Source of the DNA: Pannonibacter carbonis
GTDB taxonomy: Bacteria > Pseudomonadota > Alphaproteobacteria > Rhizobiales > Stappiaceae
DNA length: 64,000 nucleotides
Assembly (NCBI RefSeq): GCF_003012935.1
Contig: NZ_PUDR01000003.1
Coordinates: forward strand, 1-64,000
Reading direction: 5' to 3'
Both the position numbers and the translations under genes were made by a program. This document shows positions 1 through 19,503 of this stretch, piece after piece. Positions within the stretch are counted from its first letter, which is position 1; every line of letters begins with the position of its first letter. The notes beneath the pieces were generated by a model. The model was given only the letters and a program-made list of their open reading frames with translations, did not search any database and had not been told where the DNA came from.

Positions 1-259
1 GGGGTCTGGGGGTGGGGGGAGCGGGCTTAAATCCAGGGCAATTACCTTCCTGACTAGGCTTCCCTCGGACGTTTTGTGACTCTCCGTCTGCCCGTGCCCC
101 CCACCCCCCACCCCCCACCCCGTACCCCTCCCCACGAGGGGGAGGGGAGCGGAGAGGTCTTGAAAACCGTCCGGCTGAGTATGCGATATCCGTGCCCTTC
201 AAGGGGGGAGAGGGGCGCGATAAACGGCGCCTTGCAGAGATCAGCCAAGTCTTGAAAGT
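1..259. repeat. Intergenic palindromic and tandem GC-rich repeats downstream of the PKS/AOS locus
   Basis: No convincing gene is seen here. At about 100-120 there is a short tandem of a 7-base ACCCCCC unit. At about 124-148 a C-rich/G-rich palindrome of the type CCCCTCCCC-ACGA-GGGGGAGGGG occurs; a related element lies at the right end of the window (about 63750-63893). Around 195-215 is the right half only of the palindromic element that occurs in full at 367-518. Apparent reading frames here are by-products of the GC skew. Confidence 0.6.
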
Positions 260-550: not shown

Positions 551-1939
551 TTACCGCGTGGCCTTCAGCAGCCGCTCCACGGCCGAGCCGCCAGCGCGCA
601 CGCCATCCAGCTCTTCGGCGGTGATCGCGACCACGCGGTCGATCTGCTCGAACGTGTGCTCGCTGGTGATGAAGAAGCGCAGCCGGGCTGCCTTTTCCGC
701 CACCGCGGGGAAGATGATCGGCAGGGCGTTGACCCCGCGCTCCAGGAGGCGATTGGCGAGGGTCACGGCGCCGATGCTGTCGCCGACGATGACCGGAACC
801 ACCGAGTAGCCGGCGCTCGGGCCGGTGTCGAGACCGGCAGCCTTGGCCGCTTTCAGGAAATGCTGGCCATTGGCCTGCAGCCGGGCCACCCGCTCCGGCT
901 CCCGCTCCAGGAGTTCGGCGCTCTTGGTTGCCGCAGCCGTGAGGGCCGGGGAGAGGCCGACGGAGAAGACGAAGCCCGGAGCCGTCGCCTTCAGGTAGTC
1001 GCACAGCACCCGCGATGCCGCGATATAGCCGCCGCAGGACGAGAAGGTCTTGGACAGGGTGCCCATCCACATCTCGACCTCGTTCGGGTCGACGCCGTAA
1101 TGCTCGGCAATACCGCGTCCGGTTTCTCCAAGGACGCCAATGGAATGGGCCTCGTCCACCAGCAGCCAGGCGTCATAGGCCTGCTTCAGCTTGACCACGC
1201 GTCTGAGATCCGGGAAGTCGCCATCCATCGAGTAGAGGCCTTCCACGACGATCAGCACATGCTCGTATTTGTGCCGGTTCTCGGCAAGCAGACGCTCCAG
1301 CGCGTCGAGGTCGTCATGCGGGAAGTTGATCCGGGTCGCACCGGACAGCCGCGCGCCCTCGGCGATGGAATTGTGCACGAGCTGATCGGTGAGGATCAGG
1401 TCGCCCTTGTTCATCAGGTGGCCGATGGTGGTGACATTGGTGGCGTGTCCGCTCACCATCACAACCGCCGCCTCGGTGCCGTGGATCCGGGCGAGCGCTT
1501 CTTCCAACTGCCGGTGGATCGGCCGTTCGCCGGCCACAACGCGGCTGGCCGATACGCTGACGCCATAGGTGTCCACCGCAGCCTGCGCGGCGGCAATCAC
1601 TTCCGGATGACCATTGAGGCCAACGTAATTGTAGGAGGCAAAGTTGTCATAGACCTTGCCGTCGATCGTCGTCGTCCCGGCGGCGAGGCCGTCATGCGGC
1701 CGGAAAAACGGATTGCCGATCCCCATCATCTCCGCTGCCGCACGCTGCATCTGCAGCTGGCGCACTTGCGGCAGTTCGGTGAAGTCGAAGGCGCGGCGCT
1801 TGGCCGGAGCCTCGGCGCCCGCTGCCGGAGCGGCGGGACGGCGGTCGCGGCCAGCACGGCGGCCGGCGCGCACGCTGTCCATCAGCTTGTCGCGGTCTCC
1901 GCTTGCAATGCCGCCAAGGCTCGGGCGCTTCTCTGTCAT
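551..1939 (-). CDS. PLP-dependent alpha-oxoamine synthase (AONS/serine palmitoyltransferase family) paired with the PKS
   Basis: A 462-aa fold-type I PLP enzyme of the 8-amino-7-oxononanoate synthase / serine palmitoyltransferase family. Visible motifs are VDEAHSIGVLG (Asp262, His265) and TLSKTFSSCGGYIA, where Lys297 should form the PLP aldimine. This SKTFSSCGG form is typical of synthases that off-load polyketide chains. Expected reaction: decarboxylative Claisen condensation of an amino acid with the acyl thioester on the PKS ACP, releasing an alpha-amino ketone. The start codon overlaps the PKS stop by 4 nt (ATGA), so the two are translationally coupled. The first ~50 residues are an Arg/Ala/Pro-rich extension not needed for the PLP fold and may dock the PKS. 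Biotin synthesis (BioF) is unlikely because no bio genes are present. The amino acid used cannot be read from the sequence. Confidence 0.9.
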   Translation of the reverse strand: MTEKRPSLGGIASGDRDKLMDSVRAGRRAGRDRRPAAPAAGAEAPAKRRAFDFTELPQVRQLQMQRAAAEMMGIGNPFFRPHDGLAAGTTTIDGKVYDNFASYNYVGLNGHPEVIAAAQAAVDTYGVSVSASRVVAGERPIHRQLEEALARIHGTEAAVVMVSGHATNVTTIGHLMNKGDLILTDQLVHNSIAEGARLSGATRINFPHDDLDALERLLAENRHKYEHVLIVVEGLYSMDGDFPDLRRVVKLKQAYDAWLLVDEAHSIGVLGETGRGIAEHYGVDPNEVEMWMGTLSKTFSSCGGYIAASRVLCDYLKATAPGFVFSVGLSPALTAAATKSAELLEREPERVARLQANGQHFLKAAKAAGLDTGPSAGYSVVPVIVGDSIGAVTLANRLLERGVNALPIIFPAVAEKAARLRFFITSEHTFEQIDRVVAITAEELDGVRAGGSAVERLLKATR

Positions 1940-4900
1940 AGCAGGGACCTCATCTCGCGGCTTTTGGCTTCAACCTGTTCGGCAATCCCGGCCAGGTCGC
2001 CGGCTTCTGCGAGGTCGCCGGAGACGTGCTGGCTGGCCAGCTGCTGTGCCTCCGCCGATGCGCCATTGTCGCCTTCACCGCCAAGAACGCGGTTGACCAC
2101 GCGGGTGGCAAGGTCGATCAAAGTCGCGCCATTGGCCAGTGACATCAGCGGGATGTCGATGCCGAGCTGGCGTTCCGCGCTCATGCGCAGCTCAAGTGCC
2201 ATCAAAGAATCCATACCGACATCAGACAGCGGCTTGTGCGGGTCGATTTCCTCCGGCGCGATGCGCAGGATCTTGCCGATCTCGCCAGCCAGCAAACCAC
2301 AGACGGTGGTCACGGCCTTGACCTTGTCCATGCCCTTCAGGAGCACGTTGAGGTCAACAGCGCCTTCCGCAACCGCGCCGTCTTCGGTGGAGCCAAGCCC
2401 CATGAGATCGACCAGCGGCGTATCGAGCAGCGCCAGTTCGCGCCGGGCCGACTGCCAGTCGATGCGGGCAAAGCCGACCGCCGCCGTCTCGAGATCCGTC
2501 TGCGGCTCGCCCATCAGCGCGATCAGCCCGTCGAGAGCTTCGCGTGCGGAGAGGGCGTGACGGCCAAGCTTGCGCGACAGCAGGTCGTTGACGTCCTGGT
2601 TGCGGGCGAGATAGCCGGCATCCGAGATTGCGCCCCAGGCCACGGCAAGGCCCGGCTTGCCGGCAGCGCGGCGCTTGCGCGCCAGCGCTTCCAGATAGCC
2701 GTTGGCGGCAACATAGTTCGCCTGACCCGGGTTGCCGACGAGCGTCGTTGCCGAGGAATACAGCACGAAATGCTCCAGCGGATCGTTCGCCGTCAACCGG
2801 TCCAGCAGCTCCGCGCCGCGCACCTTGGGCGCCAGCACGCGGGTCAGGCCGTCGTGGTCGAGGTTGGAGATCAGCACGTCGTTCAGCACCATGGCGGTGT
2901 GGAACACGCCGCGGATCGGCGGCAGGCTGGTCCGCGCCGTCTCAAGGGCGGTAGCAAGGCTCTTCTCATCGGTCAGGTCGCAGGCCGGAGCCACCACCTT
3001 GACGCCGCGTGCCGACAGCTCAGTGATGACTGCGGCGGCTTCCTCGGTGCTGCCACCACGCCGGCTGAGCACGACGAGATTGCGTGCGCCCAGATCGGCC
3101 ATGCGGCGCAGCAGCTCGGTGCCGAAGCCACCGAAGCCACCACCGATCACATAGGTCGCATCTGCACGCAGCGCGAAGTCATGGCTGCGGCGCACATCGG
3201 CCGGCACATGCGGCGGCCGCAGGATGATCTTGCCGATATGCCCGGCCTGCTGCATCAGGCGGAACGCCTCGACCACGCCATCGGCCTCGAAGACGCGATA
3301 GGGGAGCGGGGCCAGCGTACCGGCTTCGAACAGGCGGACCAGCTCGACGAACAGCTCCTTGGCCAGCTTCGGCTGACGGGTCAGCAGCTGGTCGGCATCG
3401 ATGCCAAAGTAAGTCAGGTTCTGGCGGAACGGCCTGAGGCCAATGCGGGTGTTGCCGTAGTAGTCGCGCTTGCCCAGTTCCAGGAAGCGACCGAACGGAC
3501 GCAGCACCTCGATGGAGCGCTCCATCGCCTCGCCGAACAGCGAGTTGAGGACGACATCCACGCCTTCCCCGTCGGTCGCGGTCATGACCTCGTCGACGAA
3601 GGCAAGGCTGCGCGAATCGAGCACCAGATCAGCGCCGAGCAGTCGCAGGAAGCTGCGCTTCTCTTCAGAGCCAGCGGTCGTGATCACCCGCGCACCGCGC
3701 CACTTGGCGATCTGCAGGGCAGCCAGGCCGACACCGCCGGCGCCGCCGTGGATCAGCACCGTCTCGCCTTCCGACAGGCGGGCCAGATGCACCAGCGCGT
3801 AATAGGCGGTCAGGAACGTGACCGGAATGGTCGCAGCCTCTTCCGGGGAGACGGTCGAGGGCATCGGGGCGCAGGCGTCCTCGGACACGGTCACATGCGA
3901 GGCAAAGCAGGCCGGCGCAAAGGTGATGACCCGGTCGCCAGGCCGGAACCGGCCGGCATCCGGACCGGTCGCCAGCACGATACCGCAGCATTCCATGCCA
4001 AGCGTCGGGCCGGCAAAGCCGTCTTCCAGCGCCTCTTCCGGCAACAGGCCAAGCGCCCACATCACATCGCGGAAGTTGAGGCCGCTGGCCTCGACCGCGA
4101 TTTCGATCGCGTTGCCTTCAGGGGCCTTGCGGCCAACCGCGTGCCAGGACAACTGGTCGAGCGAACCTTGACGCAGGATATCGAGGCGCATCGCCGGGTT
4201 GGCTTCGGGCGCAACTTCGCTGTCGCTGAACAGGCCACCCTGCACGATCCGCAAACCAGACCGGCGGCGACCGTCAATGATGACTTCCCGCTCTGCGCCG
4301 CTCTTGAGGATCTCATCGGCAAGGCGCACGGCGGCAACGCCGGGCTCCAGCGTCGGCGACACGTCGATGAGGCGGATGCCGGCATTGGCAAACTCGTTCA
4401 TCGCCACGCGGCCATAGGCCCAGACGGCGGCCTGGTCAGGACGGTGCGCGGTGCCACCTGCCACATCCTGCATGCCGCCGGGGGCGACGATCCAGAGGCG
4501 TGTGTCAGCAAAGCCGATGCTGTTGAGAAGGCGCGTCAGCTGCCAGGTGCGCTGGTCGACGACGGCCAACGCATCGCCGGCGGGAGCATAGGCTCCGGCC
4601 AGATGGACGATCCCGGCGCTGGCACGCTTCAACAGCTGCGCCGTCTCGGCATTGCCGGCGTCAAGGTTGAGGTTGATGAGGCCATCGCCGGCACCAGATG
4701 CGGCGTCGGCAACGGCTATGGTCACCTTGAGGCCACGCGGCGCGAGCGTCGTGATCAGCGCTTCGGCCAGCTTGCGGCTTTCGCCATCGGCGTCCGCGAT
4801 CACAAGCAGTTCGGAGGCGGCGACGGTCTCGCCCTCCGCGGTCGCGGCCTGCACCAGGTGCGGCTTGCGGGCAGCAATGAGGGTTGCCTCGGCGACGTCG

Positions 4901-7900
4901 CTGGCAAGCGCGGTGGTCTCGACGGCTTCGAGCCCGAAACCTTCCAGAACGTTGCGCCATTCCTCAGCGCCGCGCTGCCGCGAGATCGGGAAGCTGGCGA
5001 CTGCGGTCTCACGCCACCAGTCTGCGCCGATACCGCGCAACAGGTCTGTGAGCGGGGAGGGCACGAACTCGGCGCTGAACAGCAGCCCGCCCTGCACGAG
5101 ATGCTTGGCAACAGCCGCGATGTCGTCGGCGTTGCGGTCGCTCAGGCTACCACCGGACAGGATGATATCGAACGGACCGACGGCGGCAAGGCCATCGGCG
5201 TCGTCGAAGGCAACGAAGCGCAAATTGTTCGAGCCGGTCCACTGCCGCTCGGCGCGGCCGAGCAGTGTCGATACCGGGTCGGTGACGGTCACGGATGCGC
5301 GGCGCGGATCGGCAGCCCGGTCGAGGGCCAGCAGAAGTTCCGGGCTGTCGGCACCCAGCACCATCAGGCGCAGCGCCTGGTCCTGCGGCCAGCCGGCGAT
5401 GATCTTTTCGGCCAGGTGACGCAGGCCCTCGTTGCGGGCAAGCGCAGCCGGCGAGGAGGTCTGATAGGCCTCGTACAGGCCAGAGGCAAACCAGCCCGAT
5501 GCCTTGTCTGCAAGACCCCGGGCCAGCAGGGCCTCAAGGCCTTCATGCAGGCGCGACAGCAGCGAGGCTTCCGCGATGTGGCCGGAGGCCTCCAGCGCAA
5601 CGGTCTTCAAAAGGTCGGCTGTTGCCGGGCCATCCGCCGGATCGGTCAGGACGGTGTGGCTGCCGGCTTCATCGGCCAGGCCACTGTCGATCAGCCAGCC
5701 GACGAGGGCATGGACGAGCGGCAGGGCGCTGTCGGCGATCTTGCCGCTGGCAACCAGCGCGTCGACGTCGAAAGTCGCGCCACCGGCGATGCGCCAGAGC
5801 GTCTCGTGGGCGATGGTCCGTCCCATCGCCTCGACCAGCAGCAGGGTCTCGCCCGGCTCGAAGTCAGTCTCGCTGGCAATGCCGGCGGCCCGGGCAAAGG
5901 CGGCAAAGCCCTCCGGCATGACATCGGCAATCGGGGCAATGCGCGTGGCGTCAGGCAGCAACGTTGCGAACGAGCGGTAGGCAAGGTCGTCGCGGCGGGT
6001 TTCGCGGCCAAGACGCACGGCGCGGAAGCGGGCCTGGGTCAGCCGGGCAATGACGTCGCCATTGGCGTCCAGGAACTCGAAGCTTGCCTCGATGGACCGC
6101 GGCGAAGCCTTGGTGACCTTGATCGTCACGCTGGCCGGAATGGCTTCCGGTGCAAGCAGGCGCAGCGCGCCGAAGCGGATCGGCAGGAAGCTGGTCTGCG
6201 CCGGGATTTCCTTCACGCCGTTCAGCAGCGCGAACAGGCCGTGGAAGCCTGCGTCCAGCAGGGTGGGGCACAGGGCGAAGCGTTCGTCCGCCAGCGCATC
6301 GATCTGCGGCTTCAGGGTCACCGTTGCGGTCGTCGCATCATGGGTGACAACGGTTTCCGCGCGCTGGAAGGCAGGGCCGTAGCGCAGCCCAAAAGCCCGG
6401 GTGACCTCGTAGAGGGCCGCATGGTCGAGCGTGACAAGCGTCTCGCTGCCGGTCTTCAGAACCGGCGTCCGGTCCTTGCGAACGGCGGACACATAGTGGC
6501 CACGGGCATTGAGCGCCCATTCGGCACCCGCCAGACGCGGCCGTGACATGACTTCCACGACATGGTCGTCGGACGAGATGCGGACCTGGGTCTCGAAGGT
6601 CTCGGCACCGTCAAACACCAGCGGCCGCAGGATGTCGAAATCACGCAGCTCGATCTCGTCGGCACCCGACCAGCGCAGGGCTGCGCGCAGGGCCATTTCG
6701 GTGTAGCCGGCGGCCGGGAATACGATGGACTCTTCCACCTTGTGATCGGCGAGCCACGGCAGCATGGCCGGATCAACGTGGTTGAACCACTCGCCCACGT
6801 CCTGGCGCAGCCGGTAGCCGAGCAGCGGCCAGCTCTTGCCGAACATGTAGTCGACGCTTTCGGCAGTCGCTTCCGGCTTGAAGGGCACGTTCTGCCAGGG
6901 GTAGTTCGGCAGGGCAACCGGCTGCAGCGGCGCTTCACCGAAGAACGCATCCAGCTCGACCGCGCCACCAAAGGCCAGCACGCCGGCGGCGGTGTGCTCG
7001 ACCGGATTGCGGGCGGTTTCGCCATTCTTGGCCGGCATGTCGAGGCTGGCGAGCACATCGGCACGCTGGCCGCCCTCGCGCAGCACGTCGGTCATGTAGG
7101 TGCCAAGCACCGGACGCGGGCCGATTTCCAGGAACACGGAGATCCCGTCCGCCGCCATCGCCTCGATGGCCGAGGAGAACAGCACCGGCTGGCGCACGTT
7201 GCGCCACCAGTAATCCGGGTCCAGCGCCACATCGCGCTTGTCCGGGTCAACGGTCGAATAGAACGGGATGTCGGACTGACGCGGCACAACGCCATCGAGC
7301 GCGGCCAGCAGCGGCTCGCGGATCGGTTCCACCAGCGCACAGTGGAACGGATAGGCGAGGTTGAGCTTCTTCATCGCCCAGCGCTTCTTGCGGGCGTATT
7401 TGCCGAAGGCGTCGAGGCTCTCGACCGGGCCGGAGATGGTCACGCTGCGCGGCGAGTTGATCGCGGCCAGCTCGATGCGCGGGAATGCGGCCTCATCGAT
7501 GGCTGCCTGTGCATCCTGCGCCGACAGCAGGAGGGCGGCCATGGTGCCAAGGTCGCGAATGACCTCCTGACGCGTCGAGCGGGCGTGGATGACCTTGACG
7601 GCCTGGTCGAGCGTCAGCGCGCCGGAGCACCAGGCGGCCGCGACTTCGCCCACGCTGTGGCCGGCAACCGCACTCGGGCGCAGGCCACGTTTGGCCAGCG
7701 CCTCGACGAGGGCGACCTGGACGGCAAACAGCAGCGGCTGTGCGATTTCCGTGCGCTCGATCTCGTTGTCGAGTTCCTCGGAGAACAGTGTGGTCAGCAG
7801 CGACCAGCCGCCAAGGCCCATGAACTTGCGGTCGACACGCTCGAAGGCCTGCTGGAACGCCGTGTCCTTCTGATAGGCATCGCGGCCCATGCCGGCCCAT

Positions 7901-9522
7901 TGCGAGCCGTTGCCGGAGAAGACGAAGCCAACCTTCTGCTCGCCCTTGACCGTGCTTCCCTGCACCAGGTTCGGGCAGGTTTCGTCGGCCAGGAAAGTTT
8001 CAAGCACCCGGCGGCGCTCATCGGCCGTGGCGCCCAGCACCACCAGGCGGTCGCCAAGAAGGTCACGGGTGTAGGCGGCGGAGGCGGCGATCTGCGCGGC
8101 CTTGCCGTCAGACGCGCCCTCCAGCGCCTCGTGGTAGCGGCGGGCCAGTTGGCCAAGCGCGGCCTTGCCGCGGGCGCTCAGCACCAGCGGCGTGTCCAGG
8201 CGCAGCGCCTCGGCGGTGGCAATCCCCTGATCCCGGTCGCCGTCTGCGATCACGACGTGGGCGTTGGTCCCACCGAAGCCGAAAGAGTTGATGCCGGCAA
8301 GCCGCGGCTTGTCCGAGGCCATGAGGGCAACCGGTTCGCTGGCAACCCTGAGGTTCAGCTCGTCGAAGGCGATGTCCGGGTTCGGCGTGTTGAAGTGCAG
8401 CGATCGCGGCAACTCATTGTGCTCAAGCGCCAGCAGCGACTTCAGCAGACCGACGAGGCCCGAAACCGGCTCCAGATGGCCGACGTTGGTCTTCACCGAG
8501 CCGATATGCAGCACCTCGTCGCGCTTCTGCCCGATCACGGTGCCAAGCGCTTCCGCTTCCGCCGGATCACCGACGCGCGTGCCCGTGCCATGGGCCTCGA
8601 CGAAGGCCAGCGCATTGGGGTCAACCCCGCCAGCGCCGTACATCTCGGCGAGCAGCGCAGCCTGGGCATAGGGCGAGGGCAGAGAGAGACCGACCGTGCG
8701 GCCATCGGCATTGATGCCCGAGGCGAGGATGCGCGCATGCACCCGGGTGCCATTGGCCCGCGCCACCCGCGAGGACTGCAGCACCAGGACGACGCCACCT
8801 TCCGAACGGACATAGCCGTCACCATTGGCGTCGAACGCCTGGCAGAGGCCGGTGGGCGACAGCATCGAGGCGCGGGAGAAGCCGACGAAGGAGAACGGGC
8901 TCAGCAGCATGCTGACGCCGCAGACGATGGCAGTGTCGATCTGTCCGCTTTCCAGCGCCGAGACCGCTTCGTGCAGGGCGACGAGCGAGGACGAGCAGGC
9001 CGTGTCCACCGTGAAGGACGGGCCACGCAGGTCATAGATGTAGGAAATGCGGTTCGAGACGATCGACAGCGTGTTGCCTGTCATGAACTGCATGTCGGCG
9101 TTGGGCGGATCGATCACGAAGCGGTGGTGATAGTCGAGCGAGGACGCGCCGACATAGACGCCCGTGGAGGTGCCAGCCAGAGCGCTCGGCGGCAGCCCTG
9201 CCTGTTCCAGCGCTTCCCAGACCAGCTGCAACAGGATGCGCTGCTGCGGATCCATCTGCAGAGCTTCGCGCGGCGAAATGCCGAAGAACGACGGATCAAA
9301 GCCCCAGACGTCATCCAGCTGACCTGCAGCCCAGGTGTAGGCCTTGCCGGCAGCGCTCCGGTCCGGATGACCGAATCGCGCCAAAGGCCAGCGGTCATTC
9401 GACACGCTGGTGACGGAGCAGCGACCTTCTTGAAGAAGATTCCAGAATTCGTTCGTATTTGCAGCGCCGGGAAGGCGGCTTGCATAACCAATGATTTCAA
9501 TGTTGCTCTTAATAGAAGCCAT
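1936..9522 (-). CDS. Highly reducing single-module type I polyketide synthase (KS-AT-DH-psiMT-ER-KR-ACP)
   Basis: A 2528-aa modular synthase. KS (about 1-430) has the triad Cys176 in DTACSSS, His311 in EAHGTGT and His349 in KTNVGHL. AT (about 530-830) has GHSVGE with Ser623 and YPFHCA near 724-729. DH (about 895-1170) has His927 and Asp1090/His1094. Residues about 1220-1560 match the position of a C-methyltransferase but lack a clear SAM motif, so it is probably inactive. ER (about 1780-2102) has a GGAGGVGLAALQ NADPH loop at 1926. KR (about 2120-2360) has GGGFGGFG and Ser2256/Tyr2270/Asn2274. ACP has Ser2439 in DVGMDSL. With all reductive domains, one module and no thioesterase, iterative synthesis of a saturated chain released by the coupled oxoamine synthase is the best model. 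The C-terminal ~45 residues are acidic and helical. The upstream Shine-Dalgarno is weak. No PPTase or loading enzyme is nearby. Confidence 0.93.
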   Translation of the reverse strand: MASIKSNIEIIGYASRLPGAANTNEFWNLLQEGRCSVTSVSNDRWPLARFGHPDRSAAGKAYTWAAGQLDDVWGFDPSFFGISPREALQMDPQQRILLQLVWEALEQAGLPPSALAGTSTGVYVGASSLDYHHRFVIDPPNADMQFMTGNTLSIVSNRISYIYDLRGPSFTVDTACSSSLVALHEAVSALESGQIDTAIVCGVSMLLSPFSFVGFSRASMLSPTGLCQAFDANGDGYVRSEGGVVLVLQSSRVARANGTRVHARILASGINADGRTVGLSLPSPYAQAALLAEMYGAGGVDPNALAFVEAHGTGTRVGDPAEAEALGTVIGQKRDEVLHIGSVKTNVGHLEPVSGLVGLLKSLLALEHNELPRSLHFNTPNPDIAFDELNLRVASEPVALMASDKPRLAGINSFGFGGTNAHVVIADGDRDQGIATAEALRLDTPLVLSARGKAALGQLARRYHEALEGASDGKAAQIAASAAYTRDLLGDRLVVLGATADERRRVLETFLADETCPNLVQGSTVKGEQKVGFVFSGNGSQWAGMGRDAYQKDTAFQQAFERVDRKFMGLGGWSLLTTLFSEELDNEIERTEIAQPLLFAVQVALVEALAKRGLRPSAVAGHSVGEVAAAWCSGALTLDQAVKVIHARSTRQEVIRDLGTMAALLLSAQDAQAAIDEAAFPRIELAAINSPRSVTISGPVESLDAFGKYARKKRWAMKKLNLAYPFHCALVEPIREPLLAALDGVVPRQSDIPFYSTVDPDKRDVALDPDYWWRNVRQPVLFSSAIEAMAADGISVFLEIGPRPVLGTYMTDVLREGGQRADVLASLDMPAKNGETARNPVEHTAAGVLAFGGAVELDAFFGEAPLQPVALPNYPWQNVPFKPEATAESVDYMFGKSWPLLGYRLRQDVGEWFNHVDPAMLPWLADHKVEESIVFPAAGYTEMALRAALRWSGADEIELRDFDILRPLVFDGAETFETQVRISSDDHVVEVMSRPRLAGAEWALNARGHYVSAVRKDRTPVLKTGSETLVTLDHAALYEVTRAFGLRYGPAFQRAETVVTHDATTATVTLKPQIDALADERFALCPTLLDAGFHGLFALLNGVKEIPAQTSFLPIRFGALRLLAPEAIPASVTIKVTKASPRSIEASFEFLDANGDVIARLTQARFRAVRLGRETRRDDLAYRSFATLLPDATRIAPIADVMPEGFAAFARAAGIASETDFEPGETLLLVEAMGRTIAHETLWRIAGGATFDVDALVASGKIADSALPLVHALVGWLIDSGLADEAGSHTVLTDPADGPATADLLKTVALEASGHIAEASLLSRLHEGLEALLARGLADKASGWFASGLYEAYQTSSPAALARNEGLRHLAEKIIAGWPQDQALRLMVLGADSPELLLALDRAADPRRASVTVTDPVSTLLGRAERQWTGSNNLRFVAFDDADGLAAVGPFDIILSGGSLSDRNADDIAAVAKHLVQGGLLFSAEFVPSPLTDLLRGIGADWWRETAVASFPISRQRGAEEWRNVLEGFGLEAVETTALASDVAEATLIAARKPHLVQAATAEGETVAASELLVIADADGESRKLAEALITTLAPRGLKVTIAVADAASGAGDGLINLNLDAGNAETAQLLKRASAGIVHLAGAYAPAGDALAVVDQRTWQLTRLLNSIGFADTRLWIVAPGGMQDVAGGTAHRPDQAAVWAYGRVAMNEFANAGIRLIDVSPTLEPGVAAVRLADEILKSGAEREVIIDGRRRSGLRIVQGGLFSDSEVAPEANPAMRLDILRQGSLDQLSWHAVGRKAPEGNAIEIAVEASGLNFRDVMWALGLLPEEALEDGFAGPTLGMECCGIVLATGPDAGRFRPGDRVITFAPACFASHVTVSEDACAPMPSTVSPEEAATIPVTFLTAYYALVHLARLSEGETVLIHGGAGGVGLAALQIAKWRGARVITTAGSEEKRSFLRLLGADLVLDSRSLAFVDEVMTATDGEGVDVVLNSLFGEAMERSIEVLRPFGRFLELGKRDYYGNTRIGLRPFRQNLTYFGIDADQLLTRQPKLAKELFVELVRLFEAGTLAPLPYRVFEADGVVEAFRLMQQAGHIGKIILRPPHVPADVRRSHDFALRADATYVIGGGFGGFGTELLRRMADLGARNLVVLSRRGGSTEEAAAVITELSARGVKVVAPACDLTDEKSLATALETARTSLPPIRGVFHTAMVLNDVLISNLDHDGLTRVLAPKVRGAELLDRLTANDPLEHFVLYSSATTLVGNPGQANYVAANGYLEALARKRRAAGKPGLAVAWGAISDAGYLARNQDVNDLLSRKLGRHALSAREALDGLIALMGEPQTDLETAAVGFARIDWQSARRELALLDTPLVDLMGLGSTEDGAVAEGAVDLNVLLKGMDKVKAVTTVCGLLAGEIGKILRIAPEEIDPHKPLSDVGMDSLMALELRMSAERQLGIDIPLMSLANGATLIDLATRVVNRVLGGEGDNGASAEAQQLASQHVSGDLAEAGDLAGIAEQVEAKSREMRSLL

Positions 9523-10094: not shown

Positions 10095-11636
10095 TCAGAT
10101 GTTGCTGTCCGGGAACGAGGCCTTGCGCTGCGCCATGAACGCGATCAGCGCCTCGTCGAGTGCCGGGTCGAGTGCCGGGGCCTCGTAATCGGCCAGCATC
10201 TTCTTCCAGATCGCATTGGCGCGCCGGGCTGCATCCAGTTCGCCATCGGCAAGCCACTGCTCATAGGAATTGTTGTCAGCCACCTGCGAGCGGTAGAACG
10301 CGCTCTCGAAGTTGCGCTGGGTGTGGTTCGCGCCGAGGAAGTGGCCGCCGGGACCGACTTCGCGCAGGGCGTCCATCGCCATGCCTTCTTCCGACAGATC
10401 AATGCCCTTGGCCAGCACATGCATCATGCCGAGCTGATCGGCGTCCATGACGAATTTCTCATAGGACGAGCACAGCCCGCCCTCCAGCCAGCCGGCGGCG
10501 TGGAGGCAGAAGTTGACGCCCGACACCACGGTCGCGGCAATCGTCTGGGCCGATTCCTGCGCCGATTGCGCATCCGGCACCTTTGACGAGGTGAAGGATC
10601 CGCCGGAGCGGAACGGTAGGTTCAGCCGTCGTGCAAGCTTTGAGGCACCGTTGAGCAGCAGCGTGCCTTCCGGGCTGCCGAAGGTGGGGGCGCCGGACTG
10701 CATCGAGATCGACGACACGAAGGCGCCGAACACCACAGGCGCACCCGGGCGGATGAGCTGCGTCAGCGCGCAGCCGGCCAGCGCCTCGGCCAGCACCTGT
10801 GCCAGCGTGCCGGCAACCGTCACCGGGCTCATGGCGCCGGCAAGGATGAAGGGCGAGACGATGCAGGCCTGGTTTGCCTTGGCATAGACCTTCAGCGCAC
10901 CGAGCATGGTGGCATCGAAAACCAGCGGCGAGTTGGCGTTGATCAGCTGGATCATGACGCAGTTCTGGTCGACGAATTCCTCGCCGAACAGGATCTGCGC
11001 CATCTTCACCGAATCTTCCGCCCGTTCCGGATGGGTGACCGAGCCCATGAACGGCTTGTCCGACCATTTCATGTGCGAATAGACCATGTCGAAATGGCGC
11101 TTGTTCACCGGCAGGTCGACCGGTTCGCACACCGTGCCGCCCGAATGGTGCATGTAGGGCGACAGGTAAGACAGCTTCACGAAGTTGCGGAAGTCCTCGA
11201 TGGTGCCATAGCGGCGGCCCTTGTCGAGGTCGGTGACGAACGGGGGGCCATAGACTGGGGCAAAGACCAGGTTGTTGCCGCCGATGACCACGTTGCGGGC
11301 CCGGTTGCGTGCATGCTGGACAAACTGCGACGGTGCCGTCTTGACGATCTGCTGCAGCATGCCTTTGGGAAAGCGCACCCGCTCGCCCTGGATATCGGCC
11401 CCGGCTTCTTTCCAGATCGCGATCGTTTCCGGATCGTCGCGGAACTCGATGCCGATTTCCTGCAGGATCACATCGGCCTGCGCCTCGATCTGCGCCGCGC
11501 CTTCATCCGACAGCACGTCGAAGATCGGAATGCCGCGGGTGATATAGGGCAGGCCAAGCCCGCCCGCACCGCTTGCACGGGCTTCACGGCGCGCGCTGCG
11601 CCCCCGGCGGCCGGCAGAAACTGCGACATCAGACAT
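10095..11636 (-). CDS. Trimethylamine methyltransferase (MttB) family protein, non-pyrrolysine, candidate glycine betaine:corrinoid methyltransferase
   Basis: A 513-aa MttB-superfamily (COG5598) protein. The frame is continuous with no in-frame amber codon, so it belongs to the non-pyrrolysine branch that includes MtgB, the glycine betaine:corrinoid methyltransferase, and related enzymes for other quaternary amines. Expected role: transfer of a methyl group from a quaternary amine to the cobalt of the corrinoid protein at 22480-23178. It is divergent from the dimethylglycine-dehydrogenase-like gene at 11967, and glycine betaine minus one methyl is dimethylglycine, so that substrate is favoured by context. 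Proline betaine, carnitine and similar substrates remain possible. The N-terminal ~25 residues are basic and low-complexity. Confidence 0.88.
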   Translation of the reverse strand: MSDVAVSAGRRGRSARREARASGAGGLGLPYITRGIPIFDVLSDEGAAQIEAQADVILQEIGIEFRDDPETIAIWKEAGADIQGERVRFPKGMLQQIVKTAPSQFVQHARNRARNVVIGGNNLVFAPVYGPPFVTDLDKGRRYGTIEDFRNFVKLSYLSPYMHHSGGTVCEPVDLPVNKRHFDMVYSHMKWSDKPFMGSVTHPERAEDSVKMAQILFGEEFVDQNCVMIQLINANSPLVFDATMLGALKVYAKANQACIVSPFILAGAMSPVTVAGTLAQVLAEALAGCALTQLIRPGAPVVFGAFVSSISMQSGAPTFGSPEGTLLLNGASKLARRLNLPFRSGGSFTSSKVPDAQSAQESAQTIAATVVSGVNFCLHAAGWLEGGLCSSYEKFVMDADQLGMMHVLAKGIDLSEEGMAMDALREVGPGGHFLGANHTQRNFESAFYRSQVADNNSYEQWLADGELDAARRANAIWKKMLADYEAPALDPALDEALIAFMAQRKASFPDSNI

Positions 11637-11966
11637 GGGGTAGCTCCCGGAAAAGATCCTGCGTTGCTTTCAACGTCGCTTCCACTGTCGGCCAGGCAGC
11701 AGCAAAAGCCCGTCAAGGAACCGTCTCAGGCTACTCTATTTGCGGCATCCCCCCAGCAGGATCAGGTGCCGCAGCGATTGCTGGAAAACGACATGGCGTG
11801 TCGCCGGCGTGATGCTGCCATGACGCAATTAGGCCAATTGCTCGCCGGGCCGCGCCCGATACTGCCGCTCATGGATTTGACACCCGCGCCGCTCCTCCTG
11901 CCGGACGCGGGCTTTCGCTGCCGGACACTGCACCGGCGCGTGGTCGTGAGTGAAAAGGGATACGAA
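11637..11966. other. Divergent promoter region between the mttB-like and DMGDH-like genes
   Basis: A 330-bp divergent intergenic region that must carry promoters for both genes. No RNA gene or riboswitch fold is apparent. The most distinct element is the short palindrome at 11825-11841. Confidence 0.6.
11825..11841. promoter_or_regulatory. Candidate operator palindrome (GCAATT-N5-AATTGC)
   Basis: A perfect 6-bp inverted repeat with a 5-bp spacer, unusually AT-rich for its surroundings. It lies 126 bp before the start of the DMGDH-like gene inside the divergent promoter region. It could bind a dimeric regulator such as the GlxA/AraC-type protein encoded at 28529. This is position-based inference; a 6-bp arm can occur by chance. 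Confidence 0.35.
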
Positions 11967-14528
11967 ATGTCTGCATTTCCCGAGAAGGCAAAGATCGTCA
12001 TCATCGGCCTCGGCGGCATCGTCGGCGCCTCGGTGGCCCATCACCTGATCGAGCGCGGCTGGGACGACATCGTCGGCATCGACAAGTCCGGCATCCCCAC
12101 CGACATCGGCTCCACCGCCCACGCCTCCGACTTCTGCTACACCACCAGCCACGACTACCTGTCGGTCTGGACAACGCAATACTCCATCGATTTCTTCGAG
12201 AAGATGGGCCACTACGCCCGCATCGGCGGCCTCGAGGTCGTGCGCAAGGGCCACGACAGCTGGATGGAAGAGGTCAAGCGCAAGCTCTCCTCCGCCCGCG
12301 CCTTCGGCACGCGAGCCCATTACGTCTCCCCGTCCGAGATCAAGACGCTGTTCCCCCTCATCGAGGAGGATCAGGTGATGGGCGGCCTGTTCGATCCCGA
12401 CGCCGGCCTCGTCGTGCCGCGCTCGCAGACCGTCGCCGGCAAGCTCGTCGACCAGGGCGAGGCAAGCGGCAAGCTCAAGATCTTCGCCAACACGCCGGCC
12501 CAGTCGCTGATCGTCGAGGGCGGCCGGATCAAGGGCGTCGTCACCCACCGCGGGACGATCATGGCTGACCATGTCATCGTCTGCGCCGGGCTCTGGGGCC
12601 GGCTGATTGCCGAGATGGTGGGCGAGGACCTGCCGGTCATGCCGGTCGACCATCCCCTGACCTTCTTCGGCCCGTTCAACGAGTTTGAGGGCACGGGCAA
12701 GGAAATCGGCTACCCGCTGCTGCGCGACCAGGGCAACTCCGCCTACATGCGCGACACCGGCGACCCGAAGACCACCGAGGGCGGCCAGATCGAGTGGGGC
12801 TATTACGAGACCGACAATCCGCGCATGTGCCACCCGCGTGACCTTCTGGAAAAGCACCAGGCCCGCCTGTCGCCGTCGCAGCGCGACCTTGAGCTGGAGC
12901 AGGTCATGGCCCCGCTGGAGCGCGCCATGGAGCTGACGCCGGTGCTGGCCGAGCTTGGCTACAACGAGAGCCACTCCTTCAACGGCCTGTTGCAGGTCTC
13001 CGCCGCTGGCGGCCCGTCCTGCGGCGAGAGCCAGAAGGTGAGGGGGCTGTGGTACTGCGTCGCCATCTGGGTCAAGGACGGCCCGGGCTATGGCAAGCTG
13101 ATCGCCGACTGGATCACCGACGGCCGCACCGCCATCGACCACAATTCCATCGATTATTCGCGCTTCTACAAGCATCAGCTCACGGAGAAATTCATCGAGG
13201 GCCGCGCTCACGAGGCAGCACAGAAGATCTACTATCCCGCCGTCCACACCCGCGAACCCTATGCCTCGGGCCGTGGTGCCAAGCGCTCACCCTTCTATGA
13301 GCGCGAAGTGGCGCTGGGCGGCCATTTCATGGAGCTGGGCGGCTGGGAGCGTGCCCATGGCTACAAGGCCAACGAGCATCTTCTGGAGAAGTATGGCGAC
13401 CGGGTGCCGGTGCGCGCCAACGAATGGGACAACCGCCACTTCTGGCGCGTCTCCAACGCCGAGCATCTCGCCATGAGCGAGGATTGCGGCATGGTCAATC
13501 TCAGCCACTTCTACATCTTCGACGTGGAAGGGCCGGATCATGTGGAGCTGATGGAATGGCTTTGCGCGGCCAAGATCGGCGGCGATGCCAACATCGGCAA
13601 GGGCATCTACACCCACTTCCTCGATGACGAGGGCATGGTCCGCGCCGACCTCACCGTGATCCGCATGGCCGACCGCTGCCGCATCATCGACGGCGCCGAT
13701 GCCGGTCCGCGCGATTTCCACTACGTGAAGCGCACCGCCGAGGACAAGGGCTTCAACGTCACCGTCACGGATGTCTCGGAAGCCTATGTCACCATCGGCG
13801 TCTGGGGCCCCAACGCCCGTGCGAAGCTGAAGCAGGTGGTGGCCGACCCGGCCGGGCTCGACCCGGAAAACTTCGCCTTCGCCGCCATCAAGCCGATCGA
13901 GATCGCCGGCAAGACCGTCTCCGCCTTCCGCATTTCTTATGTCGGCGAGCAGGGCTGGGAACTGCACATGAAATACGAGGACGGCCTCGCCGTCTGGGAC
14001 GCGCTGCAGGCCGCCGGCATCATGGCCTTCGGCGTCGAGACCTACGCCAACTCCCGCCGCATGGAAAAGAGCCTGCGGCTGCAGAACGCCGATCTCCTCA
14101 CCCAGTACAACCTGATCGAGGCGGATCTTGCCCGTCCGAAGGTGAAGGAGGCCGATTTCCGCGGCAAGGCCAAGCACCTGGAGTACAAGGCGCGCGACAG
14201 GCAGCCGGCCATGCTCTGCACGCTGGTGATGACCGACAATGTCGATGCCGCAGGCGTCGCCCGCTATCCCGTCGGCTCCATGCCGGTGGTGGACCCGTTG
14301 ACCGGCGCGGTCCTCGTCGACAGCCTCGGCCGCCGCTCCTACACCACCTCCGTCGCCTATGGCCCGACCTTGGCCAAGAACATCGCACTCGCCTATCTGC
14401 CCGCAGACTATGCGCAAGTGGGCCGCAAGCTGACCGTTGAATATTTCAACGAAAGCTTCCCCGTCGAGGTCGCCGCCGTGGGCTACAAGCCGCTGTATGA
14501 CCCGGAGAACCTCAAGCCGCGCAGCTGA
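11967..14528 (+). CDS. FAD-dependent oxidoreductase with GcvT domain, dimethylglycine/sarcosine dehydrogenase family
   Basis: An 853-aa protein. The N-terminal FAD half (about 1-380) opens with the Rossmann motif IIGLGGIVGASVA and has GSTAH with His52 at the place where this family attaches FAD covalently. The C-terminal half (about 430-850) is an aminomethyltransferase-type folate-binding domain pair (GCV_T and GCV_T_C). Family members demethylate dimethylglycine or sarcosine oxidatively and pass formaldehyde to tetrahydrofolate as 5,10-methylene-THF. The ATG at 11967 was chosen because it has a GAAAAGGGA-type ribosome site and the FAD motif starts soon after; the frame stays open far upstream without homology. 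Context suggests it acts on the product of the divergent methyltransferase. The exact substrate is not readable from sequence. Confidence 0.88.
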   Translation: MSAFPEKAKIVIIGLGGIVGASVAHHLIERGWDDIVGIDKSGIPTDIGSTAHASDFCYTTSHDYLSVWTTQYSIDFFEKMGHYARIGGLEVVRKGHDSWMEEVKRKLSSARAFGTRAHYVSPSEIKTLFPLIEEDQVMGGLFDPDAGLVVPRSQTVAGKLVDQGEASGKLKIFANTPAQSLIVEGGRIKGVVTHRGTIMADHVIVCAGLWGRLIAEMVGEDLPVMPVDHPLTFFGPFNEFEGTGKEIGYPLLRDQGNSAYMRDTGDPKTTEGGQIEWGYYETDNPRMCHPRDLLEKHQARLSPSQRDLELEQVMAPLERAMELTPVLAELGYNESHSFNGLLQVSAAGGPSCGESQKVRGLWYCVAIWVKDGPGYGKLIADWITDGRTAIDHNSIDYSRFYKHQLTEKFIEGRAHEAAQKIYYPAVHTREPYASGRGAKRSPFYEREVALGGHFMELGGWERAHGYKANEHLLEKYGDRVPVRANEWDNRHFWRVSNAEHLAMSEDCGMVNLSHFYIFDVEGPDHVELMEWLCAAKIGGDANIGKGIYTHFLDDEGMVRADLTVIRMADRCRIIDGADAGPRDFHYVKRTAEDKGFNVTVTDVSEAYVTIGVWGPNARAKLKQVVADPAGLDPENFAFAAIKPIEIAGKTVSAFRISYVGEQGWELHMKYEDGLAVWDALQAAGIMAFGVETYANSRRMEKSLRLQNADLLTQYNLIEADLARPKVKEADFRGKAKHLEYKARDRQPAMLCTLVMTDNVDAAGVARYPVGSMPVVDPLTGAVLVDSLGRRSYTTSVAYGPTLAKNIALAYLPADYAQVGRKLTVEYFNESFPVEVAAVGYKPLYDPENLKPRS

Positions 14529-14639
14529 TCGCCCACAAACCTCTCGTCGCTCCTGCGCAGAAGTGACGAGGGGAGAGCCGTTGCGACAAGGAGCTTCCGC
14601 ATAAGGCCAGCTTCCTGTCACCTAGACATGCCCCACGCG

Positions 14640-14797
14640 CCCCTCTCCCCCCTTGAGGGGGAGATGTCTGCGCAGCAGACAGAGGGGGGGGGGGGGGATC
14701 AGCGCTGCAGCAGACCGGGCGCCGAAGATCATCGCACCGCTGTTCACCCCCCTCTGCCCCCTGCCGGGGGCATCTCCCCCTCAAGGGGGGAGAGGGG
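14640..14797. repeat. Palindromic intergenic element, copy 2 of 4
   Basis: About 158 bp with the same complementary ends as the element at 367-518. It carries an expanded run of G (about 12) after the internal CAGCAGACAGA stretch, the longest homopolymer seen in the four copies. Confidence 0.8.
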
Positions 14798-15181
14798 TGC
14801 TCTCGGCCCAGTTGAGAGCCCACAAACCCCCTCGTCGCTCCTGCGCAGGCAGGAGCCCAGTAACCGAGGCGCGGGATTGTCTGGCGACTGCCTAAGACAC
14901 CCATCATTCTCGATGCTTTCCGGGCCGAGGGGACGCCAAGACCCGCTGACTTTCGTCATGGCCGGGCATGTCCCGGGCATCTTCAAGCCATTGATGTGTT
15001 TGGATCCTCGGCACAAGGCCGAGGATGACGACGCATTGGGGGCAGCCCTGCCAGCCGTCTGACCCCGGTGGTTACTGGGCTCCTGCCTGCGCAGGAGCGA
15101 CGAGGGAGCGGAACCGCTGCGACAAGGTCATCCAGCCTCCGCACAGCGCCGGCCCCCTGCCACCTAGACATGCCCCACGCG

Positions 15182-15333
15182 CCCCTCTCCCCCCTTGAGG
15201 GGGAGATGTCTGCGCAGCAGACAGAGGGGGGGATCAGCGCCGCGGCAGACCCGGCGCCGAAGATCATCGCACCGCTGTTCACCCCCCTCTGCCCCCTGCC
15301 GGGCGCCCCTCTCCCCCTCAAGGGGGAGAGGGG
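15182..15333. repeat. Palindromic intergenic element, copy 3 of 4
   Basis: About 152 bp. The interior (GCGCCGAAGATCATCGCA) matches the copies at 14640 and 15525. The element is preceded by the same CACCTAGACATGCCCCACGC sequence as copy 2, so a longer block including flanks was duplicated. Confidence 0.8.
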
Positions 15334-15524
15334 CATGAGGCGGGAAGGCGGTGTCAAATTCTCGGCTGTCATCCCGGTTTGCCGCATTGCGGCAAGACCG
15401 GGATCCAGTAACCCCGGTGAGGGGGAAGACAGGGGGTACTGGATCCCCGCCTTCGCGGGGATGACAGGAGTGGACGATGGTCTGGAGACACACCCGGTTC
15501 CGTGCCTGCCGGATCGACCACTTT

Positions 15525-15671
15525 CTCTCCCCCCTTGAGGGGGAGATGTCTGCGCCAGCAGACAGAGGGGGGTATCAGCGCCGCGGCAGACCCGGCGCCG
15601 AAGATCATCGCATCGCTGCTCCCCCCCTCTGCCCCCTAGTGGGGGCATCTCCCCCTCAAGGGGGAGAGGGG
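15525..15671. repeat. Palindromic intergenic element, copy 4 of 4
   Basis: About 147 bp, with the same ends and the same interior as the copies at 14640 and 15182. It is followed directly by GTGCTCTCGG, as is copy 2, again indicating duplication of element plus flank. Confidence 0.8.
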
Positions 15672-16003
15672 TGCTCTCGGCGCAGTTGTGCGCACCCCTC
15701 GTCGCTCCTGCGCAGGCAGGAGCCCAGTACCCACTGGGCTGAATTAGGTTTCTCAGGCGGTCACCAGACAAGCAATCGCCTCGATTACTAGGCTCCTGCC
15801 TGCGCAGGAGCGACGAGGGGCGATGCTGAAGCACGCCCACCCCAAAAGCCGTTTTCCCGACACTTGCCGGTGCAAACGGGCTTGAGGGGCGGGTGGGGGT
15901 GGGGGATGTTGGGACAAGGTGCCCGTGATGCGCCGGCCGGCTGGGCAAGCGGCGGCCGGTCGAGAGCGCGCCGAAACACCAAGACAGCCCCGGAAAGACG
16001 ATC

Positions 16004-17014
16004 ATGAGCAAGCTTGAAACCCTCCTCGCCGAAAAGGGCGTGCTGCTGGCCGATGGCGCGACGGGGACCAACCTGTTCCAGATGGGCCTAACCTCCGGCG
16101 ATGCGCCGGAGCTGTGGAACGTCGACGAGCCGGAAAAGATCAAGGCGCTGCACCGGGCCTTTGTCGAGGCGGGTGCGGATATCCTGCTCACCAACACCTT
16201 CGGCGCCAACCGCCATCGCATGAAGCTGCACAAGGTCGAAGACCGGGTGGTGGAGCTGAACGCCGCCGCTGCGCGCCTGGCCCGGGCGGTGGCCGAGGAG
16301 GTGGAGCGCGAGGTGCTGATTGCCGGCTCCATCGGCCCCACGGGCGAACTTCTGGTGCCGCTCGGCGCGCTCACCTATGAGGGCGCGGTTGCGGCCTTTG
16401 CCGAGCAGATCGAGGGGCTGAAGGCGGGCGGCGTCGACATTCTCTGGGCCGAGACCATGTCCGCGCCGGAGGAAATGCAGGCAGCGGCGGAGGCGGCCCA
16501 GGGCTCGGGCCTGCCGCTGGTGATCTCGGCCAGTTTTGACACCGCCGGCCGCACCATGATGGGCCTCACCCCGAAGGCGCTGACCGAGGTGACCTCGACC
16601 TTCGCCTGCACGCCGACGGTGGTGGGTGCCAATTGCGGCGTCGGCGCGTCGGATCTGCTTGCCACCATCCTGCAGCTGTCGGAAGCAAATCCGCAGGCGA
16701 TCATCCTCGCTAAGGGCAATTGCGGCATTCCGGTCATCCAGGGCGACAAGGTGGTCTATTCCGGCACGCCGGAGCTGATGGAAACCTATGCCCACATGGC
16801 GCTGAATGCCGGCGCGCGCATCGTCGGCGGCTGCTGCGGCACCTCGCCGCTTCATCTTGCCGCCATGCGCAAGGCGCTCGACAGCCACACCCCCGGCCCG
16901 CGCCCGACGCTGGAAGACATCATCCGCGACATCGGCCCGCTCGTCTCCCCGCCGAACGAAAACGCCGGCGAGGGACGGGGCGGTGAAGGCCGCAGAGGCC
17001 GGCGCAAGGGTTAG
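16004..17014 (+). CDS. Homocysteine S-methyltransferase family protein (BHMT-like)
   Basis: A 336-aa zinc-dependent methyltransferase with the DGATGTNL opening and the three metal-binding cysteines of the family: Cys211 (GANCGVGAS) and Cys277/Cys278 (GGCCGTSP). Family members move a methyl group from betaine, S-methylmethionine or a corrinoid/folate donor to homocysteine, giving methionine. In this cluster it could be a betaine-homocysteine methyltransferase or accept the methyl from the corrinoid protein. The C-terminus is an Arg/Gly-rich tail of about 18 residues. It converges on the activator gene with only 4 bp between the two stops, so no terminator fits there. Confidence 0.88.
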   Translation: MSKLETLLAEKGVLLADGATGTNLFQMGLTSGDAPELWNVDEPEKIKALHRAFVEAGADILLTNTFGANRHRMKLHKVEDRVVELNAAAARLARAVAEEVEREVLIAGSIGPTGELLVPLGALTYEGAVAAFAEQIEGLKAGGVDILWAETMSAPEEMQAAAEAAQGSGLPLVISASFDTAGRTMMGLTPKALTEVTSTFACTPTVVGANCGVGASDLLATILQLSEANPQAIILAKGNCGIPVIQGDKVVYSGTPELMETYAHMALNAGARIVGGCCGTSPLHLAAMRKALDSHTPGPRPTLEDIIRDIGPLVSPPNENAGEGRGGEGRRGRRKG

Positions 17015-17018
17015 TCCT

Positions 17019-19088: not shown

Positions 19089-19116
19089 GGTGTCCTCAAG
19101 GTGCGTTCGGGCGGTG

Positions 19117-19458
19117 TCAGGTCTTGGTCAGCCGCCGGGTGTTGGCGCGCACGCGCTTGGCAAAGGGCTTCACCGCCGCATGGGCGATGGGTTCGGGCTT
19201 CAGGGCCGCCGGCTTGCGGCCAAGCGCCACCTGGGTCATCGCGCGGGTCGCCTGCAGGGCCATGGCCTGCTGCGCGGCCAGCGTGCCTTCAACCATGGCG
19301 GCGGCCTTCTCGCCGATCATGCGGCCCATCTCGGCGTTTTCGCGGGTGGAGCCGGTGGCGGCGGCCAGCATCATCGCCTGCGTGCGCATGGCGATGACGA
19401 GAGGGGCCTGAAACCACAGGCTGGCCAGATCATTGGTAAACTGCTTGGAACGGGACAT
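19117..19458 (-). CDS. Small phasin-like hypothetical protein in the corrinoid cluster
   Basis: A 113-aa protein starting at ATG (19458) with GGAG just upstream; an in-frame GTG 6 bp earlier is less likely. It is alanine- and methionine-rich and predicted mostly helical, with a conserved-looking FTNDLASLWFQAPLVI start and a basic C-terminus (KRVRANTRRLTKT). The composition resembles phasins, but no specific family is recognised. It sits between the activator gene and the pterin methyltransferase gene, co-oriented with both, so a role linked to the methyl-transfer system is plausible but unproven. Confidence 0.6.
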   Translation of the reverse strand: MSRSKQFTNDLASLWFQAPLVIAMRTQAMMLAAATGSTRENAEMGRMIGEKAAAMVEGTLAAQQAMALQATRAMTQVALGRKPAALKPEPIAHAAVKPFAKRVRANTRRLTKT

Positions 19459-19503
19459 GATCACTCCGACCGACAGCGGGGAGAGGGGCGGTATGCCCGG
19501 GGC

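Follow-up and report, generated by a model that had tools for sequence, protein, structure and literature searches.

A pair of genes at the very end of a contig raises the question of whether it forms a pathway of its own or one part of a larger locus that the assembly has split. The pair considered here, a reducing polyketide synthase (PKS) and a pyridoxal phosphate-dependent alpha-oxoamine synthase (AOS), lies at the start of a 64,000-nucleotide stretch of the Pannonibacter carbonis genome (NCBI RefSeq assembly GCF_003012935.1, contig NZ_PUDR01000003.1, positions 1 to 64,000 of the forward strand), referred to below as the window; the contig is denoted C23. The original prediction, made from the sequence alone, described a stand-alone amino-ketone pathway. 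A capsule-lipid pathway accounts for the pair better than an orphan secondary-metabolite cluster does, and with a probability of about 0.72 we regard it as the RkpA/RkpG-type lipid module of a capsule locus exported by an ATP-binding cassette (ABC) transporter, producing a ketosphinganine-type capsule anchor.

The pair is real and its main motifs are intact, with two small reservations that concern the dehydratase (DH) motif and the region between DH and the enoylreductase (ER). The PKS further comprises ketosynthase (KS), acyltransferase (AT), ketoreductase (KR), and acyl carrier protein (ACP) domains, and the components of the pair are as follows.

1936..9522, minus strand: monomodular reducing type I PKS, assigned to the RkpA type; open reading frame (ORF) of 2528 amino acids, Pfam domain order KS-AT-DH-ER-KR-ACP
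8248..9507, minus strand: KS domain, with the Cys in DTACSSS, HGTGT and KTNVGH; the end is taken from the fabF model, residue 425
7039..7926, minus strand: AT domain, with GHSVGE and YPFH
6013..6828, minus strand: DH domain, with the His in HKVEESIVFP
4213..5925 (approximate limits), minus strand: spacer between the Pfam domains DH and ER, originally read as a psiMT domain
3220..4110, minus strand: ER domain, with GGAGGVG
2623..3159, minus strand: KR domain, with GGFGGFG and YVAAN
2101..2292, minus strand: ACP domain, with GMDSL
551..1939, minus strand: pyridoxal phosphate-dependent AOS, assigned to the RkpG type; ORF of 462 amino acids, Lys297 codon at 1049-1051

The ORFs and motifs bear out the two-gene architecture first proposed, in which the PKS stop and the AOS start share the four bases ATGA (1936-1939) and Lys297 lies within SKTFSSCGG of an enzyme that has the aminotransferase class I/II fold by Pfam. 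The Pfam scan found no thioesterase in the PKS, as predicted, and recovered all the domains originally named except the psiMT: there was no methyltransferase match by Pfam in the PKS, and that domain is only an inferred spacer. The statement that all catalytic residues are visible holds for the motifs of KS, AT, KR, ACP, and AOS and is too strong for DH, in which we take the usual Gly of the motif to be replaced by Glu (HKVEESIVFP, compared with HVVDGKAILP in RkpA of Sinorhizobium meliloti).

The pair looked alone because the contig ends 550 bp past the AOS stop codon, at base 1 of the window (C23:1-64000), and the capsule genes are located on another contig, C8. In Pannonibacter sp. SL95 (locus L009), where the AOS and PKS are 99% and 98% identical to those of the window, respectively, the order PKS-AOS-SDR-KpsC-KpsS-KpsTME is continuous: past the AOS and convergent with it are encoded a short-chain dehydrogenase/reductase (SDR), a KpsC-like Capsule_synth protein, a KpsS-like protein, an ABC ATPase, a KpsM-like permease, and a BexC/CtrB/KpsE-like protein, followed by a GDP-mannose 4,6-dehydratase. 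The same block is found in the window's genome at the very start of C8 (C8:199-9920), and beyond it come two glycosyltransferases, a second KpsS-like protein, and a polysaccharide export (KpsD-like) protein. The full set expected of an ABC-transporter (Kps) capsule locus, namely KpsM, KpsT, KpsE, KpsD-like, KpsC, and KpsS, is found together at C8, with KpsC, KpsS, and the KpsD-like protein assigned by Pfam families and KpsT, KpsM, and KpsE by similarity to SL95, whose KpsM, KpsS, and KpsE proteins themselves score under the NCBIfam cut-offs. One protein of the capsule block, 358 amino acids long (L050 8844-9920), has no Pfam match; a like-sized ORF is present at the same place in SL95.

Two features of the window mark the junction between the contigs.

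1..94, no strand assigned: contig end, reverse complement of C8:1-94 at 98% identity
354..549, no strand assigned: dispersed repeat that separates the AOS from the capsule genes, 96% like the corresponding segment of SL95

Because window positions 1-94 match C8:1-94 at 98%, the ends of C23 and C8 overlap in the orientation that SL95 predicts, a join that is deduced from the overlap. C8:1-94 is the sole near-identical, full-length copy of this segment in the genome; among the other 16 matches listed, the longer ones reach at most 85% identity, and higher values (91-95%) are confined to a few pieces of 34-37 bases. The dispersed repeat, about 150 bp long, recurs in the window at 14636-14796, 15178-15332, and 15525-15670 and in many places of the genome, partly on both strands (it accounts for most of the 69 match rows recorded), and it probably broke the assembly at this point; AOS and SDR lie farther apart in this genome than in SL95. 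Just downstream of the AOS, positions 195-333 carry a partial copy of its 3' end, 78% identical, with the tail AVRAGGSAVERLIQATR followed by a stop codon, which is probably a duplication next to the repeats. Taken together, the contig end, the synteny in SL95, and the capsule locus on C8 rule out a stand-alone cluster, and the assertion that no transport or tailoring gene is nearby falls with it, given the capsule export genes and SDR at the start of C8, beside the AOS in SL95. The phosphopantetheinyl transferase is indeed remote, the only PF01648 match in the genome being at C23:222204-222542.

By sequence comparison, the two enzymes are of an already known kind, the RkpA/RkpG-type pair of root-nodule bacteria, of which the window holds an alphaproteobacterial version; in S. 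meliloti this pair belongs to the rkp-1 capsule (K-antigen) region, and the homology spans almost the entire length of both proteins. Against the proteins of S. meliloti Ak57, the PKS is 39.9% identical to RkpA across 2574 aligned positions and the AOS is 51.6% identical to RkpG across 450. The Ak57 record, labelled pSymB, carries no rkp names, and rkpU-A-G-H-I-J were assigned to it from the published order (PMC7902896, PMC3557214); the genes run polysaccharide export gene, PKS, AOS, SDR, PF00884 protein, capsule protein, and KpsF-type isomerase. The two loci share both enzymes in the same order, a monomodular KS-AT-DH-ER-KR-ACP protein directly upstream of the AOS, the 4-base overlap, and an adjoining SDR and KpsS-family (RkpJ-like) gene, whose KpsS product is 48% identical to RkpJ. 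They differ in gene direction, the SDR and Kps genes facing the AOS in the window's organism and running with it in rkp-1, and in that KpsTME belong to the capsule locus in the former, whereas the papers place the rkp-3 export genes apart from rkp-1. The rkp-1 region is needed for capsule, and rkp-1 mutants are capsule-deficient (PMC4881576). Among the records of a plasmid collection, 12 cover at least 80% of the PKS, and 11 of these also carry an AOS match; the twelfth is from Persicobacter.

To what extent the linkage to capsule genes extends beyond this genus was addressed in 397 genomes of the order, 117 of which contain an AOS match at E <= 1e-60. Altogether, 118 loci were fetched, mostly with 9.3 kb on each side; six rows with E <= 1e-90 (G060:C230, G120:C49, G314:C1:4067448, G195:C9, G324:C718, and G026:C126) and all weaker rows were left out, and 19 stretches with less than 9 kb on a side, owing to contig ends, were kept in the denominators. 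A PKS is encoded directly upstream of the AOS in 91 of the 118 loci. KpsC/KpsS are present in the stretch (offset up to 9.6 kb) at 45 of the 91 paired loci vs 2 of the 27 others, and at 43 of 79 paired loci when the short stretches are set aside; for comparison, an estimate from 17 pair-bearing genomes in the window's family gives a random point a chance of about 1.4% (2.2% at the most) of lying near KpsC/KpsS. Two loci scored as unpaired, L117 and L141, have stretches that break off some 0.5 kb upstream of the AOS and may therefore have a PKS beyond the cut; KpsS was found in two unpaired loci, one of them L141. At the level of whole genomes (90 with the pair in fetched loci, the window's genome included), PF05159, the family of KpsC and KpsS, was matched at E <= 1e-10 in 81 of the 90 pair-bearing genomes vs 43 of the 307 others (Fisher p about 1e-41, ancestry ignored), or in 83 of 92 when G060 and G120 are added; genomes with an AOS that lacks an adjacent PKS are not enriched (5 of 17). 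Neither AOS nor PF05159 matches were found in G116 and G300, of the same genus, or in G237, of the same family. Locus L154 (G086) combines AOS, KpsC, KpsS, SDR, and a gene resembling lipoteichoic acid (LTA) synthase, of the sulfatase fold, with no PKS match in the stretch; it is possibly a PKS-free version of the module and supports a link between AOS and capsule that is separate from the PKS.

A tree of 140 AOS rows, built by a quick method with support values that do not come from bootstrap and with L154 dropped by the length filter, places the window AOS with S. meliloti RkpG and the AOSs of Shinella, Pseudomonas, Caballeronia, and Paraburkholderia in a clade of 112 rows (support 99), apart from the PKS-less enzymes. 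This clade holds 99 of the 101 PKS-paired rows, along with 7 that were scored as unpaired; of the 26 PKS-less rows, the remaining 19 belong to a separate clade of 21 rows (support 100), and the paired rows L146 and L148 fall outside both. In several genomes of the family, members of this PKS-less clade (L151, L156, L157, L160, L161, and related loci) occur as a second AOS in addition to the RkpG-type one.

Several other enzyme classes were considered and rejected. The AOS is not a canonical serine palmitoyltransferase (SPT), scoring under all three NCBIfam cut-offs (304.6 against 640, 274.8 against 500, and 211.1 against 670 bits), nor can it be identified as BioF or KBL, no NCBIfam model being above cut-off. 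Canonical bacterial SPT, which works with a separate ACP, shares the fold and reaction class of the window AOS and differs from it in passing these cut-offs and in its partner, which in the window is the PKS-bound ACP. The genome has just one further AOS-type match, which is 33% identical and, judged by eye, is presumably similar to 5-aminolevulinate synthase. The swf family of monomodular PKSs from sponge symbionts is characterized by HATGT in place of HGTGT, an altered DPQQR, and an R/sulphotransferase partner (PMC3908369), and is ruled out by the window KS, which carries both HGTGT and DPQQR, and by the AOS partner.

With regard to the product, the informative system is PfSgaAB of Pseudomonas fluorescens MYb115. 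According to PMC12134224, it yields C24, C26, and C28 sphinganines and, most likely, phosphoglycerol-sphinganines; PfSgaB joins acyl-CoA to L-serine, virtually exclusively over alanine and glycine; the SDR SgaC is the proposed ketosphinganine reductase; and homologous putative clusters number 6101, dominantly in Burkholderia. The likeness to the window, by description and not by sequence, consists in the monomodular PKS and AOS pair and the SDR in the cluster; the systems differ in that the product is known for PfSgaAB and that capsule goes unmentioned in the text of that paper, where words beginning in capsul, rkpA, and wcbR had no match. In Pseudomonas sp. TMW 2.1634 (L195), the pair is inside a capsule locus and the SDR is the fifth gene after the AOS, just as SgaC is five locus-tag steps from sgaB in MYb115 (a comparison of tag numbers, not of sequence); a published primer from the PfSgaAB work had no match in L195. 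The wcb cluster of Burkholderia and the rkp cluster have been called orthologous (PMC3908369), by which the WcbR-type capsule PKS can also be likened to the window; the loci inspected were the related ones of Caballeronia and Paraburkholderia. The Paraburkholderia order is capsule gene, SDR, LTA-like gene, PKS, deacetylase, and AOS. An LpxC-like deacetylase gene lies between PKS and AOS in the Caballeronia and Paraburkholderia capsule loci (L196 10898-11824, L200 11887-12801). The fungal PKS and oxoamine synthase of the fumonisin and sphingofungin pathways employ the off-loading chemistry that is proposed for the pair; we know of no link between these systems and capsules.

We propose that the PKS would build a long saturated acyl chain on its own ACP by repeated malonyl extensions, and that the AOS would release it in a decarboxylative condensation whose amino-acid partner, to judge by PfSgaB, is probably L-serine. 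The product would be a 3-ketosphinganine-type lipid, the ketone of which is probably reduced by the neighbouring SDR. The resulting amino-alcohol lipid, or a phosphate or phosphoglycerol derivative, may then be the starting lipid to which KpsS and KpsC add the Kdo (3-deoxy-D-manno-oct-2-ulosonic acid) linker, with KpsMTE and the KpsD-like protein predicted to export the capsule. The sphingoid-like off-loading of an amino ketone that was originally predicted agrees with PfSgaAB (PMC12134224), and only its framing as isolated secondary metabolism has to be given up; the pathway, whose product was first thought perhaps undescribed, is largely matched by characterized clusters with the same pair, in two parts, namely rkp-1 (for the capsule requirement) and PfSgaAB (for the product).

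A wider proposal, to which we would give somewhat less than even odds, is that the lipid carrier or anchor of rkp-1-type capsules is in general a PKS-derived sphingoid base: RkpA and RkpG would make 3-ketosphinganine, RkpH-like SDRs would reduce it, and an RkpI-type phosphoglycerol transferase would add a headgroup where present, so that the PfSgaAB lipids would be capsule-anchor intermediates. In E. coli-type capsules, (lyso-)phosphatidylglycerol is primed with Kdo by KpsS and KpsC (PMC7694667, PMC11041684), and a phosphoglycerol-sphinganine would resemble this acceptor. A PF00884 or LTA-synthase-like gene is present at the S. meliloti, Pseudomonas sp. TMW 2.1634, Caballeronia, Paraburkholderia, and Shinella loci, annotated as LTA synthase in Pseudomonas, Caballeronia, and Paraburkholderia, with related PF00884 proteins in S. 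meliloti and Shinella. LTA synthases transfer phosphoglycerol; they act outside the inner membrane and KpsS inside, which is a topological objection to an RkpI-type step. An RkpI-like gene is near only 3 of 91 other paired loci within the fetched stretch and does not seem to define the pair. The idea of an RkpI/LTA-synthase-like phosphoglycerol transferase that completes the anchor is not supported for the window's organism, where no such gene was found.

Several observations weigh against the capsule-anchor assignment. To our knowledge, no product has been reported for any pair called RkpA/RkpG, and because of this the term sphingoid rests on PfSgaAB. The SDR is just 30% identical to RkpH, convergent with the AOS, and generic in appearance. 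The search that matched an RkpI-like gene in four of four control genomes (31-34% identity) found none in the window's genome, which also speaks against the headgroup step there, and the only PF00884 protein of this genome looks like a soluble sulfatase. BioF and KBL models give the AOS better scores than SPT models do, and none of the NCBIfam cut-offs is reached. Furthermore, 46 of the 91 paired loci (36 of 79 without short stretches) lack KpsC/KpsS in the fetched stretch; nine of the 90 pair-bearing genomes (G014, G079, G082, G119, G188, G205, G266, G282, and G310), some of them fragmentary assemblies, have no PF05159 match at E <= 1e-10; and the co-occurrence statistic takes no account of shared ancestry.

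The alternative that survives best, although we consider it improbable, is that the pathway ends in a free amino-lipid secondary metabolite, similar to vitroprocine or sphingofungin, and merely lies next to the capsule genes. PfSgaAB produces free C24-C28 sphinganines with effects on the nematode host (PMC12134224), and the 46 paired loci without KpsC/KpsS fit this explanation as well; against it stand the SDR/KpsC/KpsS synteny across the family and the presence and absence of the pair, which track KpsC/KpsS, as well as the capsule deficiency of rkp-1 mutants (PMC4881576) and the probable phosphoglycerol derivatives among the PfSgaAB lipids (PMC12134224). Still less probable is a capsule lipid that is not sphingoid, such as an amino ketone from glycine or alanine. 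Other AOS families have Ala, Gly, or Ser specificities, the amino-acid substrate is not readable from sequence, and the best profile scores of the window AOS are those of BioF and glycine C-acetyltransferase, not SPT; however, RkpG and a Pseudomonas AOS give the same profile pattern. It is very unlikely that this strain's copy of the pair is decaying or inactive. The partial AOS copy (about 195-333) and dispersed repeats do adjoin it, and AOS and PF05159 matches are missing from the two other genomes of the genus examined, but each ORF has its full length and intact main motifs, and the nearly identical SL95 copy is uninterrupted.

Upstream of the PKS, window positions 10095-20460 encode what, read by eye, are methylamine/corrinoid methyltransferase and folate-linked one-carbon genes; one ORF family from this region is also found upstream of the pair in SL95 and Roseibium.

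In retrospect, the locus illustrates that a capsule gene pair cut off by a contig end can resemble an orphan natural-product cluster. Beyond this, two literatures that apparently deal with one kind of enzyme are unconnected, rhizobial and Burkholderia capsule genetics (rkpA/rkpG, wcbR) on the one hand and PKS-made sphingolipids (PfSgaAB) on the other; a search of the open-licence PMC literature listed no paper that joins rkp/wcb capsule lipids to sphingoid bases, and a study of Porphyromonas (PMC5126122) reportedly linked sphingolipid synthesis with surface polysaccharides. If the enzymes are of the same kind, the capsule lipid of rkp-1 and wcb gets a concrete, testable structure, and two genes would predict capsule-anchoring sphingolipids in many bacteria. 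Should the sphingoid-base proposal be true, bacterial sphingolipid and capsule biology would meet in many Proteobacteria.
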